Positions 47,208-58,780 of a stretch of DNA of 64,000 bases are shown here, in pieces; position 1 is the first letter of the stretch; the number at the start of each line of letters is the position of its first letter. Origin of the DNA: Alkalinema sp. FACHB-956 (GTDB taxonomy: Bacteria; Cyanobacteriota; Cyanobacteriia; Leptolyngbyales; Leptolyngbyaceae). Location: the NCBI RefSeq assembly GCF_014697025.1, contig NZ_JACJRC010000001.1:620001-684000 (forward strand). The letters are read 5' to 3'. The translations under genes were made by a program, and so were the position numbers. The notes under the pieces were generated by a model. It had not been told where the DNA came from and searched no databases. It saw only the letters and a program-made list of their open reading frames with translations.

Positions 47208-47858
47208 ATGCCAGAAGTCGATAACGTGGAGTCTTTGATCCAAATTGCTTGTAGTCATCCACCGGGAAGTCTAGAACGACAGCGATATCTCACGAAAGGA
47301 ATTCGATTGATTTCGCCGCGATTATGGCGAGAATCAGTCCCTTATTATCAAGATGCTTTGCAGCAAACTTGGGTTTTCTTCTGCCAAAACATTTGTGAAG
47401 CGGGTACAGGAGAAGCGTATAACCCAAAGCGAGGGAGCGTTGTCACTTGGTTGAACTACTACCTCAAACGACGGCTCCAAGATGGATTTACCCAAGCCCA
47501 ACACCAAAAGATCACAACCGCATCTGCCTACGCCCGAGTAGAACGATCGGGGGGCGAGGGGGACGTGGTTGACCCGATCGATCATTTGCCAGCACCGGAC
47601 AGCATTCCCCCCATTCTCGAAGCCGTGCAGACCTGGGCCAGTGCTGATGCAACGGGAGAGTTACGTCAAGTTTGTATCGAAGGGCATCCCCAGGTGAACT
47701 GCCAGCTCTTAATTTTGCGACGGCTCCCCCCAGAAAGCAGTTGGCAGGCGTTGGCGGCAGAATTTAAGGTATCGGTTTCGACGTTGAGTAGTTTCTATCA
47801 ACGGCAATGTTTGACCCGTTTGCGTAAATTCGGGGCAGCGGAGGGATATATCGATTAG
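47208..47858 (+). CDS. Atypical sigma-70 family (ECF-like) factor
   Basis: A 216-aa sigma-like protein of the cyanobacterial type linked to DUF1822 and CHASE2 genes. A sigma-2-like helical region spans about residues 30-105, including YYQDALQQTWVFFCQNICEA and GSVVTWLNYYLKRRLQDGF. A linker with VDPIDHLPAPDS follows. A sigma-4-like helix-turn-helix ends the protein: NCQLLILRRLPPESSWQALA and EFKVSVSTLSSFYQRQCL. It should direct RNA polymerase to a limited set of promoters; the four repeated elements at 52.2-56.4 kb are the obvious candidates, by inference. It starts an operon with DUF1822 and CHAT-CHASE2, which may sense a signal and control it. No classical anti-sigma domain was seen. Confidence 0.85.
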   Translation: MPEVDNVESLIQIACSHPPGSLERQRYLTKGIRLISPRLWRESVPYYQDALQQTWVFFCQNICEAGTGEAYNPKRGSVVTWLNYYLKRRLQDGFTQAQHQKITTASAYARVERSGGEGDVVDPIDHLPAPDSIPPILEAVQTWASADATGELRQVCIEGHPQVNCQLLILRRLPPESSWQALAAEFKVSVSTLSSFYQRQCLTRLRKFGAAEGYID

Positions 47859-47931: not shown

Positions 47932-48921
47932 ATGAATGCCCAATATTTTGAGGAAATTGCCTTACCGATGCCGTTAACCCAGAGCGCTTTCGCGATCGCC
48001 GATCGCTTTGCAGCAGCTCAACCATCGGGCAGCAAGCGGGATCAAGTCCGCCACAATACCTTAGCCGTGCAAGTGGTGGCGGACTATCTGCATTTAATGG
48101 GAATTGCGACTGCTGTCTCAGACGGTGATAGCTGGAATGCCGTGACCCAACTCTGTAGCAATGTTGCGGATTTAGTCATTCCTGGGGTGGGGCGTTTGGA
48201 ATGTCGGCCTGTCACTGATTTCCCCGCTGATTGCTATATTCCTGCCGATGTTTGGCACGATCGCATTGGCTATGTCGTTGTTCATCTTGATCTGGATGTC
48301 AAACAAGAAGGTTTAATTCTGGGTTTTGTTCCTGCGGTCACCCAAGAAAATTTGCCCTTGAGTCAATTGGGCACGATCGATGACCTATTGAGCCATTTAT
48401 TTGCATTACGCACGCAGTCGGTAACAGAAACTCAAACAAGTTCAACAATGGCCCAAGCATCACTGGAGCGAACTAAGTTAACCCAATGGTTAGACCAATT
48501 GGATCAGTGGGTGGACAGGGGTTGGCAGGCGATCGAACAGTTGTTATCCCCCGCACAACTGGCTCCCGCCTATGCCGTGCGTCATGACCCACAAGATCCA
48601 GATACCGTCGAATTTGTCACTCAAGCGAAGCGGTTAGATTGGCAGCGGGGAGACATTCCAGTGATTTTCATTGCGGGGGTGGCCGAATTACCGGAAGCCG
48701 TGAGGATACGCATCCAAGTTTTCGCGATCGAGCCAACTAGCAATCTCCCCCAGGATTTGCGGCTGCAAGTCTTGGATGAGATGGGTCATGTTTTTCTGGA
48801 GACGGTTTCTGGTCATCACGATCGGGGATTACAACTAGTATTTGAGGGAGAGAGGGGAGAGGTTTTTGCAGTGCAATTGGGTTACCAAGGTGAGATGATT
48901 GTGGAGCACTTTGAAATCTAG
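47932..48921 (+). CDS. DUF1822 family protein
   Basis: A 329-aa soluble protein with the DUF1822 pattern: N-terminal IALPMPLTQSAFAIADRFA and SKRDQVRHNTLAVQVVADYL, then CSNVADLVIPGVGRLECRPV and VWHDRIGYVVVHLD, and a C-terminal beta-rich part. The family is confined essentially to cyanobacteria and nearly always lies between a sigma-like gene and a CHASE2/CHAT gene, as here. Its role is unknown; a regulator of the sigma factor, or a CHAT protease substrate or partner, is an inference from this association. AGGAGA lies about 8 bases before ATG. It begins 73 bases after the sigma stop and ends 32 bases before the next gene. Confidence 0.93.
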   Translation: MNAQYFEEIALPMPLTQSAFAIADRFAAAQPSGSKRDQVRHNTLAVQVVADYLHLMGIATAVSDGDSWNAVTQLCSNVADLVIPGVGRLECRPVTDFPADCYIPADVWHDRIGYVVVHLDLDVKQEGLILGFVPAVTQENLPLSQLGTIDDLLSHLFALRTQSVTETQTSSTMAQASLERTKLTQWLDQLDQWVDRGWQAIEQLLSPAQLAPAYAVRHDPQDPDTVEFVTQAKRLDWQRGDIPVIFIAGVAELPEAVRIRIQVFAIEPTSNLPQDLRLQVLDEMGHVFLETVSGHHDRGLQLVFEGERGEVFAVQLGYQGEMIVEHFEI

Positions 48922-48953: not shown

Positions 48954-51449
48954 ATGGCGGCCTTAGTTGTCCTAAAGTTTACAGAAGGCAGTTGGGAACA
49001 GGGGTTTCCAGTGGTGTTGCAGATCGCTGAGGCAGGACAGGCGATCACCACAGAAATGGCCGGAAAACTTCCCGCGAATCCCCATTTGCCGCAACTTTAT
49101 GGGCAATGGCAAGCGGCCTATCAAGCCCTCGTGCATACCCCACGGCTTTCCGCCAAGCTTGGACAAACTACAAAAATTCCGAGTACTTCAGGCTTGCAGC
49201 AGCTAGCCCAACAACTCCAAGCCGAATTTCAACAATGGTTAACGGCAGAGTCTTTTCGGGGAATTCGGGAAACCTGGTTGGAAAAATTGGCCAGTGATCA
49301 AGCCGTTCGGGTGGTTTTGCAAACCGCTGATTCGATCGTTCAAGGTCTCCCTTGGCATCTGTGGGATATTGTGCAACGGTATGGTCAAGCGGAAATTGCG
49401 CTGAGTCGGCCCTCTTTTGATCGGATTGCTCCAACCGTAAAACGATCGAATAAAGTTCGTATTTTAGTCATTATTGGCAACAGTGAAGGGATTGATACAA
49501 CCACTGATGTAGAGTTACTCAGACAACTCCCACAGGTTGATTTAGAAGTGCTCCAAGAGCCGTCCCGGCGTCAGTTGAGCGATGCGTTGTGGGAACAGAC
49601 TTGGGATATTTTATTTTTTGCGGGTCACAGTTCGAGCCAGCCCGATCGCGCTAAGGGACGTTTAGCCATTAACGCGCAGGATCATTTAAGTCTGAGTGAA
49701 TTGAAATATGCCTTAGAACGCGCACTCAACGCCGGATTAGAGCTTGCCATTTTCAATTCCTGTGATGGGTTAGGTTTGGCGCAGGAATTAGCTACCCTCA
49801 AGATTCCAGAATTGATTGTGATGCGGGAGATGGTACCCGATCGAGTAGCCCAGAAATTTTTGCAATATTTTCTCAGTCATTTTTCCCAAGGGGATTCACT
49901 CAGTGTATCGGTGCGACAGGCAAGGCAGCGTTTACAGGCATTAGAAGACGAAGCGCCCTGTGCGACCTGGCTACCCGTTTTATTTCAAAATCCTGCCCAC
50001 ACCCCACCCACTTGGCAGAGTCTGTGTCAGGGTAAAGTAGACCCTGCGGATCTAGTGCCAGATCCCCAAATTTCCCCAATTCCCAACATTTCCCCGATTC
50101 CACCGATTCCCGCAGCAGGCTCGCCCAACGCCCATCGAGTTTCCCAAATTCTTAGGTGTACGGGATTGGGTTTCCTATCGGGGTGTGTAATGCTGGCCTT
50201 ACGGAGTTTGGGCGCATTGCAAGACTGGGAGTTGCAAACCTTGGATAGGATGATGCGAATGCGACCGGCGGAACCCACAGATAGCCGCATTTTGTTAGTC
50301 ACGATCGATGAAACAGATATTCAAGAACAACCCGATCGGGGCCAAGGTTCGCTATCCGATACGGCATTAAATCAACTATTGCAACAGCTAACCTCCTACC
50401 AACCCAGAGCGATCGGGCTAGATTTGTATCGCGATTTTCCCACGAATGTCCAGCAGCTAACCAAGCAACAATCACAATCCAAGCAACAATTACAACCTAA
50501 GCAGCAATCACAACCTAAACAGAAATCACAACCTAAACAACCATTCCAGCTCAAGCAACAACTGCAACAATTGGATCATCTCATCACCCTCTGTAAGCAT
50601 AGTGACGCTGAAGGAAAGCAAGCAGGCATTGCAGCTTCACCGGATGTCCCGATCGAACGGGTTGGCTTTAGTGATTTCATTAGTGATCGGGATGGCGTTT
50701 TACGACGGCAATTGATGTTCATGAATCCTGACCCAGCATCCCCTTGTTTAGCGACCTATGGATTTGGGACACGCTTGGCGATCGAGTATTTATTTTCAGA
50801 AGGCCATGAAGCTGAATTTACCCCCGATGGCAAACTGCAATTTGGCAAAACGTTGATTCCGACCATTCGCCGTCCGATGGGGGGCTATCAAACGATCGAC
50901 GATCGGGGTGGCCAAATCTTATTAAATTATCGCAGTGGGAATCGACCGTTTCAGCAAGTTAGTTTGATGCAAGTTTTGCGGGGCCAAGTTGCGCCAGAGT
51001 TAGTTAAAGATCGCGTAATTTTGATTGGCACGATTGCCACCAGTGCTGGGGATTATTGGATGACACCGCTGGGACGATCGACGGATGCACAGTTACAAGG
51101 CGTCGTGATTCAAGCCCACATGACGAGTCAACTTCTGAATCATGTACTCGATCGGCGGCCTTTAATTCACAGTTGGTCAAAGGGGGACGAAATTGCTTGG
51201 ATACTGGGTTGGACAGTGGTGGGAATTGGTTTGATTTCCTGCGTGCAACACTGTTGGCTCAAGCATTCTATTTTGGGAACGATCGCGATTTTCGGAGTGT
51301 TTTGGGGTGGATTTTTGTTCGGGGGGTATGCTTTGCTGCTGCGGGGCCTGTGGGTTCCTGTCGTGCCACCCATCGCAGGAATCGGGCTGGCTACGTTAAT
51401 CCTGGTAGTCAGCCCGAAACATTTGGGGGATTATGAAAGTAACCGCTAA
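48954..51449 (+). CDS. CHAT (caspase-like) protease domain fused to CHASE2 membrane sensor
   Basis: An 831-aa protein joining a clan-CD peptidase domain to an extracytoplasmic sensor. The CHAT domain covers about residues 80-350; the catalytic pair is His225 in FFAGHSSS and Cys270 in IFNSCDGLGLA. After a Pro/Ile-rich linker and one membrane helix, the CHASE2 domain begins LQDWELQTLDRMMRMRPAEP and RILLVTIDETDIQEQ (about residue 440). Three C-terminal helices end the protein. A Lys/Gln-rich insert of about 35 residues (SKQQLQPKQQ units) interrupts CHASE2. The design suggests that an external cue sensed by CHASE2 switches CHAT proteolysis, with the sigma and DUF1822 proteins as likely targets; this is inference. 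Confidence 0.92.
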   Translation: MAALVVLKFTEGSWEQGFPVVLQIAEAGQAITTEMAGKLPANPHLPQLYGQWQAAYQALVHTPRLSAKLGQTTKIPSTSGLQQLAQQLQAEFQQWLTAESFRGIRETWLEKLASDQAVRVVLQTADSIVQGLPWHLWDIVQRYGQAEIALSRPSFDRIAPTVKRSNKVRILVIIGNSEGIDTTTDVELLRQLPQVDLEVLQEPSRRQLSDALWEQTWDILFFAGHSSSQPDRAKGRLAINAQDHLSLSELKYALERALNAGLELAIFNSCDGLGLAQELATLKIPELIVMREMVPDRVAQKFLQYFLSHFSQGDSLSVSVRQARQRLQALEDEAPCATWLPVLFQNPAHTPPTWQSLCQGKVDPADLVPDPQISPIPNISPIPPIPAAGSPNAHRVSQILRCTGLGFLSGCVMLALRSLGALQDWELQTLDRMMRMRPAEPTDSRILLVTIDETDIQEQPDRGQGSLSDTALNQLLQQLTSYQPRAIGLDLYRDFPTNVQQLTKQQSQSKQQLQPKQQSQPKQKSQPKQPFQLKQQLQQLDHLITLCKHSDAEGKQAGIAASPDVPIERVGFSDFISDRDGVLRRQLMFMNPDPASPCLATYGFGTRLAIEYLFSEGHEAEFTPDGKLQFGKTLIPTIRRPMGGYQTIDDRGGQILLNYRSGNRPFQQVSLMQVLRGQVAPELVKDRVILIGTIATSAGDYWMTPLGRSTDAQLQGVVIQAHMTSQLLNHVLDRRPLIHSWSKGDEIAWILGWTVVGIGLISCVQHCWLKHSILGTIAIFGVFWGGFLFGGYALLLRGLWVPVVPPIAGIGLATLILVVSPKHLGDYESNR
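50461..50570. repeat. 18-bp tandem repeat inside the CHASE2 domain
   Basis: Degenerate copies of an 18-base unit close to CAACCTAAGCAGCAATCA encode Gln-Pro-Lys-Gln-Gln-Ser repeats between DFPTNVQQL and LDHLITLCK. The insert is in frame. Confidence 0.85.
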
Positions 51450-53552: not shown

Positions 53553-55655
53553 TTAGGCCGTGACTGTGGCATCCCAACTATGAAAGTCCTCTAGAAGCTG
53601 GCTCGCTGTCTTGTAGACGATGGGATATTGACCAGTTGGGTTGTTTGCGCTTTCTGGATTACTGTGCCAGGGATTGTAGAGACTGAAGTAACCCGTATTC
53701 GCATCATACCCAGCGAGGATATAGGCATGTTTTCCGACAACATCAGCATTGTCGGGCCGAGTGGTATTGACGACCACCATCCGACCTTGATTGAATGCGG
53801 TCATCATTTCAGCGATCGTATTACTGGCCCAGAATAAGGCTCCGCTGCTGAGATCCTGATGTGGCATCGCATTGAGTCCTGTGATGTGAGTCAGTGCATT
53901 GAATGCCCAGCCCCCTGAGATACCCTCGTAAGTATTGCTACCATCTTGACTAATTCCCAATAAGCCTAGGGCTGGCAGGTTAAAAGATTCTTGGTTGAGT
54001 TGAGCGTAGGCTTTTTCGGCTAAGGCGACCCAGAGTTCATTCCGGTCATCCCAATAACCCAAGCCCGAGGCATCATTGGCATAGACAAACTTTCCGTTTG
54101 CTTCATAGGTTGGCAGATAGCGATCGACGGTCACATAGTTTTCTTGGCCATCAACAAAGAAACGGACGGTGAAAGTACCATCAGCGTTATCTGTGAACAT
54201 ATCAGCAATTCGGTTGGGCGCATGTAACGCAACCGCGCCAAGGCTAGCCAGGAAATAGCAATCACCGACTGCACCTTGATCAATATCGAAGTAGCTAATC
54301 CCATTCTGAAAGAGTGAGCCTTCAGCTTTTTGGTAAGCGATCGGAGCCTGATGGTATACAGGCAGTAGCACACCGTTTTCTGTGGATAATGTAACTGAAT
54401 CAATCGTCCTGGGAATTCCGGGTCGATCGGTTCCTAAAAACCATTTCTCAATCAGTTGTTCCAAATGGGCCGCACTACTTCCAGCCCCAAATCCACCCAG
54501 ATTCGACTTATCATTGGCCAGGTTCCAGTTCAAAACTTTATTGGCTAAGACCTGAGTGGATTTTGAAATTCCAAGGTTGCTGCCTTGATTCACGATTTTC
54601 TGGAGATCCCCCAGTTCCGTGGCATCTACAATGAATGCGTCTTGGGCTTGGCGCAGAATATCGCGCATTTCAGTATGGCTGATTACGCCATCTCCGATAT
54701 AAGCTGCCCGAGCCGTTGTTAAAATTGCGTCATCCGTGATGGAATTACTAAACCAATCACATCCCATCATGATCTGATAGTTGCTCTCACTGCTATACAT
54801 CTGGCTTTGATTGACTTGCAGAAAATAGCTACCTTCCCCTAATTGACGGTGCATCAAGGTGATTGGCTGATTGGTCTGACCTTGGTAGTAGTAGTCAGCA
54901 ACGACTTCTCCTTCATCCAGCCGACCATTATTGTTCCCATCACGCACAAGCCGGAAATCTGTCGTGTTTGATGCACTAGTTAGGCTGAGATGGAAGTTCT
55001 GAGGTTGATCGAGCGTGAAATGATAACTGTCAGAGCTATTGGAATTATTAACAGTTCCACTCGCGATCGTGGCACCTGTGAAATTCATTTCTCTGCTTAG
55101 CACATCATTGAATTGTTCATAGGACACCTTCAACTTGTAATCACGACTGATCGGGGAGGTATTTCTAATTTCAAGATAATACTCACCCATGTACATCCCT
55201 GAAAAATCGAGCGTTGCGTCAATAGTATTGTTCCTTGCCCACGCACGGCCCAGAATCTCATCCTCTTCGATTTGCTGATTGCCATTTGCATCCCGGAATA
55301 AGTGAATATTCGCATCCCCTGAAAGACTAATGTGAATGTCAGCGCCCCCCATGTGGTAGAGCGGAACATTAAACTTGAGCATATCGATCGGGTCAACCCC
55401 CCCTACTGCATCACTCATTTGCCATTGACGGTTACCCATCGTGGATGCTAGCGGAGTCCCCGCTTGTGCAAACGTGTCCCCATAGCGATCGTATTTAAGT
55501 ACCGTCCCCTGACCGACGTCTAACAAGGAACTTGCTGCATTGGATTTGAAGGTGCTAATTGCGCTTAAATCACTGGGGCTGAGTGCGGTGATGGGGGACG
55601 CTTGCAGCGGTGTTGTGGCATTTAAGGGATTGCTCGATCTCATGAGGGTATCCAT
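53553..55655 (-). CDS. Calpain-family (C2) cysteine protease with PPC-like domains
   Basis: A 700-aa protein. ATG 55655 has ATAGGAGT 6-7 bases upstream; the ORF upstream of it from TTG 55691 is leader. Residues about 25-310 hold two PPC-like beta domains, each with a calcium-loop-like sequence (DANGNQQIEEDE and DGNNNGRLDEGE). A helical region follows. The C-terminal calpain domain has the full triad: Cys466 in GAVGDCYFLASLGA, His643 in VGKHAYILAGYD and Asn661 in SLYNPWHS. It therefore looks active and calcium-responsive, as in other calpains. There is no classical signal peptide; export could use another route. It begins 56 bases after promoter-like element C. Confidence 0.9.
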   Translation of the reverse strand: MDTLMRSSNPLNATTPLQASPITALSPSDLSAISTFKSNAASSLLDVGQGTVLKYDRYGDTFAQAGTPLASTMGNRQWQMSDAVGGVDPIDMLKFNVPLYHMGGADIHISLSGDANIHLFRDANGNQQIEEDEILGRAWARNNTIDATLDFSGMYMGEYYLEIRNTSPISRDYKLKVSYEQFNDVLSREMNFTGATIASGTVNNSNSSDSYHFTLDQPQNFHLSLTSASNTTDFRLVRDGNNNGRLDEGEVVADYYYQGQTNQPITLMHRQLGEGSYFLQVNQSQMYSSESNYQIMMGCDWFSNSITDDAILTTARAAYIGDGVISHTEMRDILRQAQDAFIVDATELGDLQKIVNQGSNLGISKSTQVLANKVLNWNLANDKSNLGGFGAGSSAAHLEQLIEKWFLGTDRPGIPRTIDSVTLSTENGVLLPVYHQAPIAYQKAEGSLFQNGISYFDIDQGAVGDCYFLASLGAVALHAPNRIADMFTDNADGTFTVRFFVDGQENYVTVDRYLPTYEANGKFVYANDASGLGYWDDRNELWVALAEKAYAQLNQESFNLPALGLLGISQDGSNTYEGISGGWAFNALTHITGLNAMPHQDLSSGALFWASNTIAEMMTAFNQGRMVVVNTTRPDNADVVGKHAYILAGYDANTGYFSLYNPWHSNPESANNPTGQYPIVYKTASQLLEDFHSWDATVTA

Positions 55656-55710
55656 TATGGGACTCCTATTGGGTGTGAGTATGGAGGGCAAAAATTGAAG
55701 AATTGAATTG

Positions 55711-55769: not shown

Positions 55770-56312
55770 CTATTCCGTATCAGGGCAATCGCTGCTTCCT
55801 TCCAGACTCAGGTTATCCACTTGCACCCAAGCATCCGCGCCCGGTGCCCAGAAGCCAGCAAAAATGTTGTATTCCGTGGCGTCCCCTGTACGAAAGCGAA
55901 CCGTTAACTGTTTGTACTGCGCTTGTGGCCCAAATTTCACTTCCGCCAAAACCGCTTGATTCCCATGGCGCACCCCAAAATAGCCATCCTGCACATTGCC
56001 CGAAGTCCTGACATAAGCACGAATGACATAGTTGCGATTCGGGACTAACCGCACCTTCTGCCGGAGTGCATTCCAACCCGATGTATTGCGCAACCAGGCA
56101 TTATTGCGCCCTTCATAGCTATAGCCTTGATTAATATCGATTCCAGCACGGCCTTCCGCAACCCAAGGGGGCAAAATCCGGCCAATTTTCTGTTCTTCAA
56201 AGCGGCTATCTTTGAGCGGATTGGCACACATCGCTTGGGCAGAAGTTGCGGCCAAATTCCAGCCGAGCAAACCCGTTAAAAACGCGATCGAGCAATGAGC
56301 TTGAAATTTCAT
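55770..56312 (-). CDS. Exported jelly-roll protein, carbohydrate-binding-module-like
   Basis: A signal peptide (HCSIAFLTGLLGWNLAATSAQA) precedes a single beta-sandwich domain. N-LLKDSRFEE-type start, IDINQGYSYEGRNNAWLRN, QKVRLVPNRNYVIRAYVRTSG and the end WVQVDNLSLEGS follow the CBM4/9-like plan found in glycan-binding modules, where the last Asp and aromatic side chains help binding. Its ligand is not known. AGGGAGG lies 4-5 bases before ATG. It begins only 23 bases after promoter-like element D, so it should have a very short leader. The calpain gene downstream has its own element. Confidence 0.75.
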   Translation of the reverse strand: MKFQAHCSIAFLTGLLGWNLAATSAQAMCANPLKDSRFEEQKIGRILPPWVAEGRAGIDINQGYSYEGRNNAWLRNTSGWNALRQKVRLVPNRNYVIRAYVRTSGNVQDGYFGVRHGNQAVLAEVKFGPQAQYKQLTVRFRTGDATEYNIFAGFWAPGADAWVQVDNLSLEGSSDCPDTE

Positions 56313-56419: not shown

Positions 56420-58780
56420 TCAACGCCGATCGTGCCCCATCATCAAAAACGGTGCCCAATTCAGCGGTTCTGGATAGGACTTCATGGTTTCCAACATCGC
56501 CGATCGCAGAGCCTGAGCATCAGGAGCCTTCTGTCGTTCTGCATAGAACTGCTGCATCAGTTCCGCCGTTGAATCATCCGGCACCTGCCACAGCGAAACC
56601 ACCACCCGCCTCGCCCCCGCAATCATGAAGGCCCGCGACAAACCAATTACCCCATCCCCACTAATCGTTCCCTGCCCCGTATCACAGGCACTCAACACCA
56701 CCAAATCCGCTTGCAACCGCAGTTGAGCAATTTCATCACTGGATAGAAACCCATCATTGCCCGCACTCGGCGCAAGCGCGAGGGCACCGGGAATTCCCGA
56801 TCGCCGGAGATCATCCAACAAGCCATGGGTAGCGAAATGAATCAGTTGAGCCTGGGGCATTTGGGACAGAACCGTCGATTTGAGCGCGTGGGCTTGGGTC
56901 AGAACAGGCACCTGTAACCGTTGTCCGATCGCGATCGCTTCTTTTTCAGCAAAGGGCAAATTGGCGAGTTGCTCCGCTGCGTTGGTCGCTAAATTCCAGG
57001 TGGTTGGCATGACTGGATTCCCCACAATCAAGGCTGCTGCTGTGGCGGTTGGAGACGTTTTTTGAGGCGAACTCGCTAAATCTAGGACTTGAATGGAAGG
57101 CGCATGGACGATCGTATGCCGCTCAATCAAAAAACGGCCTTGTCGATCTTGCAAGGCCGCAAAAGGCAAGACAAATAAACGCTCCTGCGGCACAAAGACA
57201 ACAGTTTGAGCCGGATCGGGCGGCAGCAGATCGACGATCGGGGTAACTAATAGCTCATGCAACTTTTGTAGGGCTGGATGGTATGGCACTTCCCCCTTGT
57301 CGGGTGGCGGAAATTCCTGGCGCAAGGTTGTCAACAGCTGACCACAGGTCTCCGGATCGCTAGCCGATCGCATAATGCCACAACGGGCAACCTCTAGTAA
57401 CTCAGCAAAATCACTCTGCTGCTGCCATAAAAACGTTAAATCGACCGTCCGAACCTGCACCGTCCCATTCGGCTGCACCACCCAAATATATAAGCCCGCC
57501 GATCGCCCCCGCTGTTTGCCTTGAAATTGAAAAGCCTCATCCGGAACCAAGGCATATTCAACGATCGTGACTTGTTGGGCTTGGGCAATGCGTTTGATTT
57601 GGGCTAAATTTGGCGCAAGATTGCTGGGATCAAGATTAGGCAATCGTGCCGATCGTGCGCCCGTCGTTGCTCTTTGCTGGGCCAATTGTTTGGCAAACGC
57701 TTGCGCCCGACCTTGTTCTGAGACTTCTAAGGCCAGTTCCGGCTGTTTTTTAGCCATTAAAACCTGCTGCAACAAATTGTAAGTGGCCACTTGGGTATCG
57801 AATAGCGCGATCTGTTGCCGATCGCTCAAGCCTTGGCGGAGTTTGTCGCGTAATTGCACCGCTTGTCGCAAAGCAGCCTCTGCCCGATCGAACTGTCGAT
57901 CTCCCAAATAGGCATGGCCTAAATTATTCAACGCTGCCGTCTGCGTCACAATATCTTGGCTATCCTGGGCAATTTTTAAACTTTGTTGCAGGTAGTCGAT
58001 CGCGGGTTTGTAATCGCCTTGATAGGCCAAGGCCAGCCCCATGTTATTGAGCGCCTGCCGCATTCGGACGAAATCTTGATGGGTTTGAGCAAGGGTAAGC
58101 GCTTGCTGATAATCAGTCATCGCAGCAGCAAATTGCCCCTGCACCTGCTTGATATTGCCCAAATTCAATAACGTTGAACTTTGCCCTAAGGGATTATTTC
58201 GTTGGAGTTTAAGGCTTTGCTCATACTGGATCAAGGCTTGTTGATAATCCCCCAAAGCCGCATAGACAACCCCTAAATTCCCCATTACTTTGCTTTGATG
58301 TTCCCAATCCGATTGTTGTTTCGCGATCGTTAAACTTTGTTCAAACTGTACGATCGCGACTTCATACTCTCCTAGGTAAACGTAAATATTGCCCAAACTA
58401 TTCATCGCCTGCATCTGGCCTAGGGCATCTTGTAAGGTTGTCGCGATCGTCAAGGCTATCTGAATTGCACTCAAAGCGGATTGATAATCCCCGATCGCCG
58501 TTTTTCTCAGCGTCATGTTTTCCAAGTCAGCTTGGATAACACGAAGATTCGATCGAATCGCCTCACTGGATTCTCGATCGTGATTGGCTTGAAATAACTG
58601 GAAGGCTTGGAGCCAAAGCTGGGCCGCTTGTTCTAGCTGACCCTTCTGATAGGCATTAACCCCCTGCTGGAAGACGATATCTGGATCAGGGTTCGCCGTT
58701 ACCGCGATCGTGGGTAAGCAATGGAAGCTGAGTAATAGAAAGCTTAGCAATGCGATCGATCGACCACGGCTACATTTCAT
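56420..58780 (-). CDS. TPR-CHAT protein (caspase-like peptidase), exported or membrane-linked
   Basis: A 786-aa protein with an N-terminal signal segment (RSIALLSFLLLSFHCLPTIA). Tetratricopeptide repeats fill about residues 35-330 (for example GDYKPAIDYLQQSLKIAQ). The CHAT domain covers about 450-786 with His652 in HFATHGLLDD and Cys699 in VVLSACDTGQG, the catalytic dyad, followed by RAFMIAGARRVVVSLWQVPD. The TPRs may bind the substrate, as in the CHAT protease of type III-E CRISPR, which acts on a partner protein. It is the last gene of an operon with the haemagglutinin-like and DUF928 genes (3 bases separate it from the former). Confidence 0.93.
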   Translation of the reverse strand: MKCSRGRSIALLSFLLLSFHCLPTIAVTANPDPDIVFQQGVNAYQKGQLEQAAQLWLQAFQLFQANHDRESSEAIRSNLRVIQADLENMTLRKTAIGDYQSALSAIQIALTIATTLQDALGQMQAMNSLGNIYVYLGEYEVAIVQFEQSLTIAKQQSDWEHQSKVMGNLGVVYAALGDYQQALIQYEQSLKLQRNNPLGQSSTLLNLGNIKQVQGQFAAAMTDYQQALTLAQTHQDFVRMRQALNNMGLALAYQGDYKPAIDYLQQSLKIAQDSQDIVTQTAALNNLGHAYLGDRQFDRAEAALRQAVQLRDKLRQGLSDRQQIALFDTQVATYNLLQQVLMAKKQPELALEVSEQGRAQAFAKQLAQQRATTGARSARLPNLDPSNLAPNLAQIKRIAQAQQVTIVEYALVPDEAFQFQGKQRGRSAGLYIWVVQPNGTVQVRTVDLTFLWQQQSDFAELLEVARCGIMRSASDPETCGQLLTTLRQEFPPPDKGEVPYHPALQKLHELLVTPIVDLLPPDPAQTVVFVPQERLFVLPFAALQDRQGRFLIERHTIVHAPSIQVLDLASSPQKTSPTATAAALIVGNPVMPTTWNLATNAAEQLANLPFAEKEAIAIGQRLQVPVLTQAHALKSTVLSQMPQAQLIHFATHGLLDDLRRSGIPGALALAPSAGNDGFLSSDEIAQLRLQADLVVLSACDTGQGTISGDGVIGLSRAFMIAGARRVVVSLWQVPDDSTAELMQQFYAERQKAPDAQALRSAMLETMKSYPEPLNWAPFLMMGHDRR

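Follow-up and report, generated by a model that had tools for sequence, protein, structure and literature searches.

What does a calpain do in a cyanobacterium, and what keeps such a protease under control? The question is raised by a gene in the 64,000-nucleotide stretch of DNA from Alkalinema sp. FACHB-956 that we analysed here, referred to as the window. The part of PMC9380684 considered here describes the role of bacterial calpains as unknown. A sequence-only reading of the locus had taken the gene for a calpain with an intact catalytic triad and with PPC domains that carry calcium loops. It had further suggested that the calpain acts together with two neighbouring CHAT proteins, in a proteolytic cascade or a cell-death-like pathway.

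The features of the locus are collected in Table 1, and residues are numbered from the ATG at position 55655. A TTG at position 55691, where the calpain frame is still open, is an alternative start further upstream. The Pfam family Peptidase_C2 covers residues 446-555 (E 1.9e-21; 76.8 bits, with a curated cut-off of 23.8), and the human calpains are the best solved structures found by phmmer (E 3.1e-08). An AlphaFold2 model built from 46 aligned sequences (mean pLDDT 79.6, pTM 0.67, below 50 at residues 1-53 and over most of 421-435) contains the two-subdomain fold of the protease core. Using VIA-align, we could superimpose residues 367-700 of the model on the core of human calpain-3 (6bgp) with Z 22.9 and an rmsd of 3.0 over 238 residues at 24% identity. 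Structure prediction, which had been proposed as a check, thus recovered the calpain core. The assignment of Cys466, His643 and Asn661 as the triad proved exact; these residues as well as Gln460, Trp663 and Asp457 are invariant in the 46-row alignment.

Table 1. Features of the calpain locus, with positions in the window.
Feature	Position	Strand	Remarks
Calpain-type peptidase gene	53553..55655	minus	700 aa; ATG at 55655, stop at 53553-53555
Calpain protease core	53556..54338	minus	about residues 440-700; Pfam, phmmer, predicted model
Catalytic Cys466 codon	54258..54260	minus	invariant, 46 rows
Catalytic His643 codon	53727..53729	minus	invariant, 46 rows
Catalytic Asn661 codon	53673..53675	minus	invariant, 46 rows
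Conserved all-helical linker domain	54420..54761	minus	residues 299-412, about 115 residues; no Pfam family
PPC-type beta-sandwich 1	55119..55490	minus	residues 56-179; model alignment
PPC-type beta-sandwich 2	54762..55088	minus	about residues 190-298; weak Pfam PPC and model alignment
First DxNxNx6E loop	55257..55292	minus	residues 122-133
Second DxNxNx6E loop	54906..54941	minus	residues 239-250; compatible with a 12-residue EF-hand-type loop
Small CBM-like protein	55770..56312	minus	N-terminal signal-like stretch; just upstream of calpain
TPR-CHAT protein	56420..58780	minus	PF12770, E 2.3e-66; kept in one relative
CHAT-CHASE2 protein	48954..51449	plus	PF05226 and PF12770; 66% identity in L031
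DUF1822 protein of CHAT island	47932..48921	plus	58% identity in L031
Sigma-like protein of CHAT island	47208..47858	plus	weak sigma-70 match, E 0.057; 79% identity in L031

A contig scan with the window protein alone returned no relatives, while the scan with alignment A1 (the window protein and 17 of 24 other ORFs) yielded the best 80 of 155 relatives used below. Alignment A2 holds the window protein and 45 of 54 references, the 54 being left from 66 ORFs once over-long, near-identical and fragmentary rows had been dropped, and alignment A3 holds the window protein and 54 of 66 references. The Cys-His-Asn triad is complete in 79 of 85 related ORFs, and the residues of calcium site 1 in the core are kept in 81 of them. 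In the window protein this site consists of Gly452, Asp457 and Glu540, equivalent to Gly91, Asp96 and Glu175 of calpain-2 according to the phmmer alignment and the site list in the portion of PMC4631099 that we drew on. The acidic residues of core site 2, which follow the NPW motif, are out of place by eye. It has been described that some bacterial calpains, cyanobacterial ones included, have site 1 only (Rawlings 2015, PMC4631099, covered in part). EF-hand_1 and EF-hand_6 scored 13.2 and 12.3 bits (cut-offs 25.4 and 25), and by Pfam the window protein has no penta-EF-hand domain. In this respect, and in the PPC-type domains in front, it differs from the eukaryotic calpain-1, -2 and -3, with which it shares the fold of the protease core and the catalytic residues.

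Active-site residues vary in several relatives. The protein at L019 (G025) is without catalytic Cys and His, and Ser replaces the catalytic Asn in L061, L070 and L072, which belong to the chromosome and a plasmid of Calothrix sp. PCC 7716 and to Calothrix sp. HK-06. Asp stands at the Asn position in two of the three calpains of L102. A third calpain in the genome of the nearest relative (G010:C276:23487-25265) is interrupted by two TGA and two TAA codons and is likely a pseudogene.

It is fair to call calpains uncommon in bacteria, as the sequence-only reading did, but they are not rare in this group, since Peptidase_C2 was matched in 27 of 97 related genomes. In a profile search of the window genome the window calpain is the single match. 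In the part of their paper considered, Veselenyiova et al. (2022, PMC9380684) reported that 10 of 50 cyanobacterial species have calpains; the triad is present in all of these proteins and N-terminal PPC domains in most. The window protein adds one more to these published PPC-calpains: as in the sections of PMC9380684 and PMC4631099 covered here, the PPC domains are N-terminal, the CysPc domain is C-terminal, and the Cys-His-Asn triad and core calcium site 1 are present. The position inside a CHAT island sets the window gene apart from them.

In front of the core, both D-x-N-x-N-x6-E loops noticed earlier are real. Two such loops arose in 2 of 2000 shuffles of the window protein, and each sits in one of two PPC-type domains. 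The naming of these domains as PPC is borne out by the fold, but not by the Pfam cut-off: PF04151 reaches 18.8 bits instead of 25.9 and covers residues 208-281 only. In the model, residues 56-179 match the collagen-binding domain of ColG (2o8o) with Z 13.1 and an rmsd of 1.8 over 102 residues, and residues 180-298 match a Bacillus PPC structure (5sv5) with Z 11.5 and an rmsd of 2.5 over 104 residues. From the VIA-align matches we therefore conclude that the protein has two PPC-type domains in addition to a full calpain core. The loops are not special to calpains, because the region of the second one resembles many non-calpain proteins in the same family of genomes and because a loop of this type precedes the linker in only 18 of 66 related ORFs. 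As an argument for calcium control, they would be weaker than site 1 in the core.

Between the PPC-type domains and the core lies a helical linker, most of which is modelled with pLDDT above 90. Asp308 and Glu347 are invariant in the 46-row alignment, and Asp322, Arg327, Asp339 and Asp350 are nearly so, in agreement with A3. The linker carries five conserved acidic residues. Pfam gave no match to the linker of the window protein even at E 1, and for 55 linker members it gave scattered weak matches only, among them EF-hand_6 in two members at E 0.056 or worse. The best Foldseek match has a probability of 0.25, and EF-hand matches, which would fit the idea of the linker as an EF-hand pair, stay at 0.13 or less; the absence of a clear match does not mean a new fold. 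With VIA-align the best row of any kind reaches Z 4.6, and a search for solved sequence relatives gave no clear one (best E 0.21). The linker profile has 37 matches in 33 of 194 genomes of the class, and 36 of the 37 directly precede a Peptidase_C2 match, the exception being in G101. The linker is also found ahead of calpains of Planctomycetota. In the first ORF set its motif is present at 25 of 30 loci; the other five, L023-L027, some of which are fragments, are without it.

Clustering of all neighbours of the 80 loci revealed a protein family of about 150-190 residues, encoded directly downstream of the calpain at 19 loci. Using profile A4, made from 20 of 21 rows of this partner, we found the gene behind 22 of 85 calpain ORFs, on the same strand and at -1 to 228 bases, and no further copies elsewhere in the calpain loci. 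The loci with the partner are L032, L039, L050, L063, L064, L069, L071, L073, L074 and L077, and further L079, L091, L092, L094, L095, L097, L102, L103, L106 and L107. At L102 (2539-11602, Xenococcaceae MO_188.B32) three calpain ORFs follow one another, two of them with a partner gene of their own. Partner-less calpains of L034, L035, L037, L042, L043 and L049 and of the Calothrix loci have another frame behind them, of about 350-450 aa, on the same strand, about 240-560 bases past the calpain and with an N-terminus common to these loci.

Among the 194 genomes, A4 gave 20 matches in 18 genomes, namely 18 of the 33 linker-bearing genomes and none of the 161 others. Sixteen of the 20 matches lie at most 460 bases downstream of a Peptidase_C2 match, one lies at 1.4 kb (G173) and three are on contigs without such a match (G016, G051, G084); A4 was collected around calpains, so that adjacency in its source genomes is given by construction, which does not apply to the 161 other genomes or to adjacency in non-source genomes such as G023, G043, G067 and G094. 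Pairwise distances among the partners correlate with those among the calpains (r 0.64, a value reached in 0 of 2000 permutations), and genetic linkage alone can give such a correlation. The N-terminus of the partner is hydrophobic and ended by Cys in 16 of 20 rows by eye (13 of 22 with a stricter pattern), which points to a small exported, mostly lipoprotein-like protein. The family was not found in Pfam, NCBIfam or the PDB, apart from weak Ig-like and other matches, and a search against PDB sequences gave no match at E 5.

The nearest known arrangement is that of small inhibitor genes beside papain-like protease genes, as in the staphopain-staphostatin and SpeB-Spi pairs. The inhibitors of C10 proteases in Bacteroides (Btp/Bti) are exported and in part lipoproteins, as stated in the portion of PMC3462683 considered. 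By analogy, the partner is probably a cognate inhibitor of the neighbouring calpain; a chaperone, an anchor or a substrate would be possible as well. As with the C10 and C47 proteases and their staphostatin-like inhibitors, a papain-like protease stands beside a small gene, here in the 22 related ORFs and not in the window. The protease families are different, however, and the likeness concerns the gene arrangement.

The exported partner argues for calpain action outside the cytoplasm, and against the reading of PMC9380684, which in the part covered here places cyanobacterial calpains in the cytosol. A regulatory role in the cytosol, as most eukaryotic calpains have it, is unlikely for the window protein. 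Such a role would fit the lack of an evident signal peptide, of which none is apparent by eye, but not the signal-like or lipobox-like start of the partner beside related calpains. Moreover, the sections of PMC9380684 and PMC4631099 that we drew on describe PPC domains as a typical feature of secreted proteins.

Could the calpain instead be an antibacterial or contact-dependent effector, with the downstream lipoprotein of its relatives as the immunity protein? The pair is tight and co-inherited, its second protein appears to be exported, and several calpain copies can occur at one locus, as at L102. However, most calpains are without the partner, and the window, which has none, would be left unprotected. 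We therefore regard this possibility as improbable. Of the 85 related calpain ORFs, 63 have no partner gene, and A4 found no match in the window genome and none behind the window calpain; thus, the partner is not needed for all calpains.

We favour an exported calpain restrained by its partner, and for the window this raises the question of what became of the partner gene. In a quick tree of 86 calpains, calculated without bootstrap, 21 of the 22 rows with a partner fall into a part of 40 rows that includes the window. L031 is the sister of the window protein (100), and L039 (97), a locus with the partner, comes next. Since the window calpain groups in the partner-rich half, beside the partner-bearing L039, loss is the simplest reading, and the window lineage has probably lost the gene. 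The gene at 55770..56312 was considered as a stand-in and rejected; it occurs in 6 of 194 genomes, and outside the window no match lies near a Peptidase_C2 match.

The two CHAT genes within 9 kb that the earlier reading had pointed out are indeed present and flank the calpain at 0.8 and 2.1 kb. A common pathway with them, proteolytic or leading to cell death, is nevertheless very unlikely. Of the calpains searched, the best 80 of 155 relatives, 5 have CHAT genes at a distance of up to about 10 kb (6 CHAT genes in 1.346 Mb); contig ends truncate many of these loci, and the CHAT profile had 14 seeds. Complete tallies of 14 related genomes (369 matches in about 86 Mb) let about 6 be expected near 80 loci, a rough figure, as a single family of genomes provided the density whereas the loci are from many. 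The number near calpains is thus about what chance would give and provides no support for a CHAT-calpain cascade, although CHASE2-CHAT genes are also found near calpains in L063 and L073. In the window genome, 38 CHAT matches stand against the one calpain.

One point in favour of the cascade comes from Alkalinema sp. RU_4_3 (L031), the nearest relative. Its sigma-like, DUF1822, CHAT-CHASE2, calpain and TPR-CHAT genes have the same order and orientation as in the window, with 60% identity for the calpain and 81% for the end of TPR-CHAT, while outer neighbours and intervening genes differ. In L031 the frames beyond the sigma-like gene do not match anything in the window, and the three window genes between CHAT-CHASE2 and the calpain have no counterpart in L031. 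A survey of neighbours had been suggested as a check, and it found the CHAT-calpain-CHAT order outside the window in this relative only. At least five other islands with CHAT, CHASE2 and DUF928 genes exist in the window genome, none of them with a calpain.

Because the order is local to L031 and the sister islands are without a calpain, the island looks like a recurring unit of cyanobacteria that took up a calpain in one lineage. The window shares with other cyanobacterial CHAT/CHASE2 islands the sigma-like, DUF1822, CHAT-CHASE2, TPS, DUF928 and TPR-CHAT genes, a set found again, wholly or partly, in its genome, but it differs in having the calpain and three further genes between CHAT-CHASE2 and TPR-CHAT. 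At L139, L140, L142, L145 and L146 of the window genome, CHAT, CHASE2, DUF928, DUF1822 and TPS genes again form islands, and a single long open frame of L142 (5618-12055) matches both TPS and CHAT profiles. For the window itself, the combination of CHAT genes and calpain is a local one.

It is scarcely credible that the window gene encodes a non-catalytic remnant: active-site residues have been lost in some relatives, such as L019, and the window pair has a long stem (0.56) in the 86-calpain tree, but the window protein keeps all five active-site residues and those of the core calcium site, and its nearest relative also keeps the triad.

Overall, as judged from sequence, the window gene probably encodes an active, exported and calcium-regulated PPC-calpain, many related calpains would be restrained by their partner, and the window lineage has probably lost it; we give this reading as a whole a probability of roughly 0.55. 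The N-terminal PPC-type domains would anchor the enzyme to a surface or a substrate, where their loops may bind calcium, and the helical linker would lead into the calpain core. Calcium at core site 1 (Gly452, Asp457, Glu540) may then align Cys466 with His643 and Asn661 for cleavage. In many relatives the downstream lipoprotein-like partner, whose association with the calpain is observed, most likely restrains the enzyme in the periplasm and, by analogy with protease-inhibitor gene pairs, would guard this compartment against its own calpain. In the window lineage the partner would be gone, with the calpain placed inside a CHAT island whose order is common to one relative.

A more far-reaching version can be proposed only tentatively. 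Cyanobacterial calpains might be an exported, PPC-anchored protease system with a dedicated helical regulatory domain and, in many lineages, a cognate exported lipoprotein inhibitor from the gene just downstream; the window lineage would have lost this inhibitor, and between the CHAT genes control may have passed to new neighbours. If this is true, the partner would be a bacterial counterpart, in role, to calpastatin.

Relative to the databases and the portions of the literature searched, the helical linker domain and the downstream partner gene are new. Neither a linker domain of calpains nor a partner or inhibitor gene downstream of bacterial calpains was found there, including, for the partner, the covered parts of the main texts of PMC9380684, PMC4631099, PMC13413365 and PMC3034196. 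If the partner inhibits its neighbour, these calpains act outside the cytoplasm, where they have to be restrained, and bacteria would have an independent version of the calpain-inhibitor pairing known from animals. Almost always found with a calpain protease, the linker domain is a second clear target besides the co-inherited exported partner, which offers a concrete handle on the function of calpains in bacteria.
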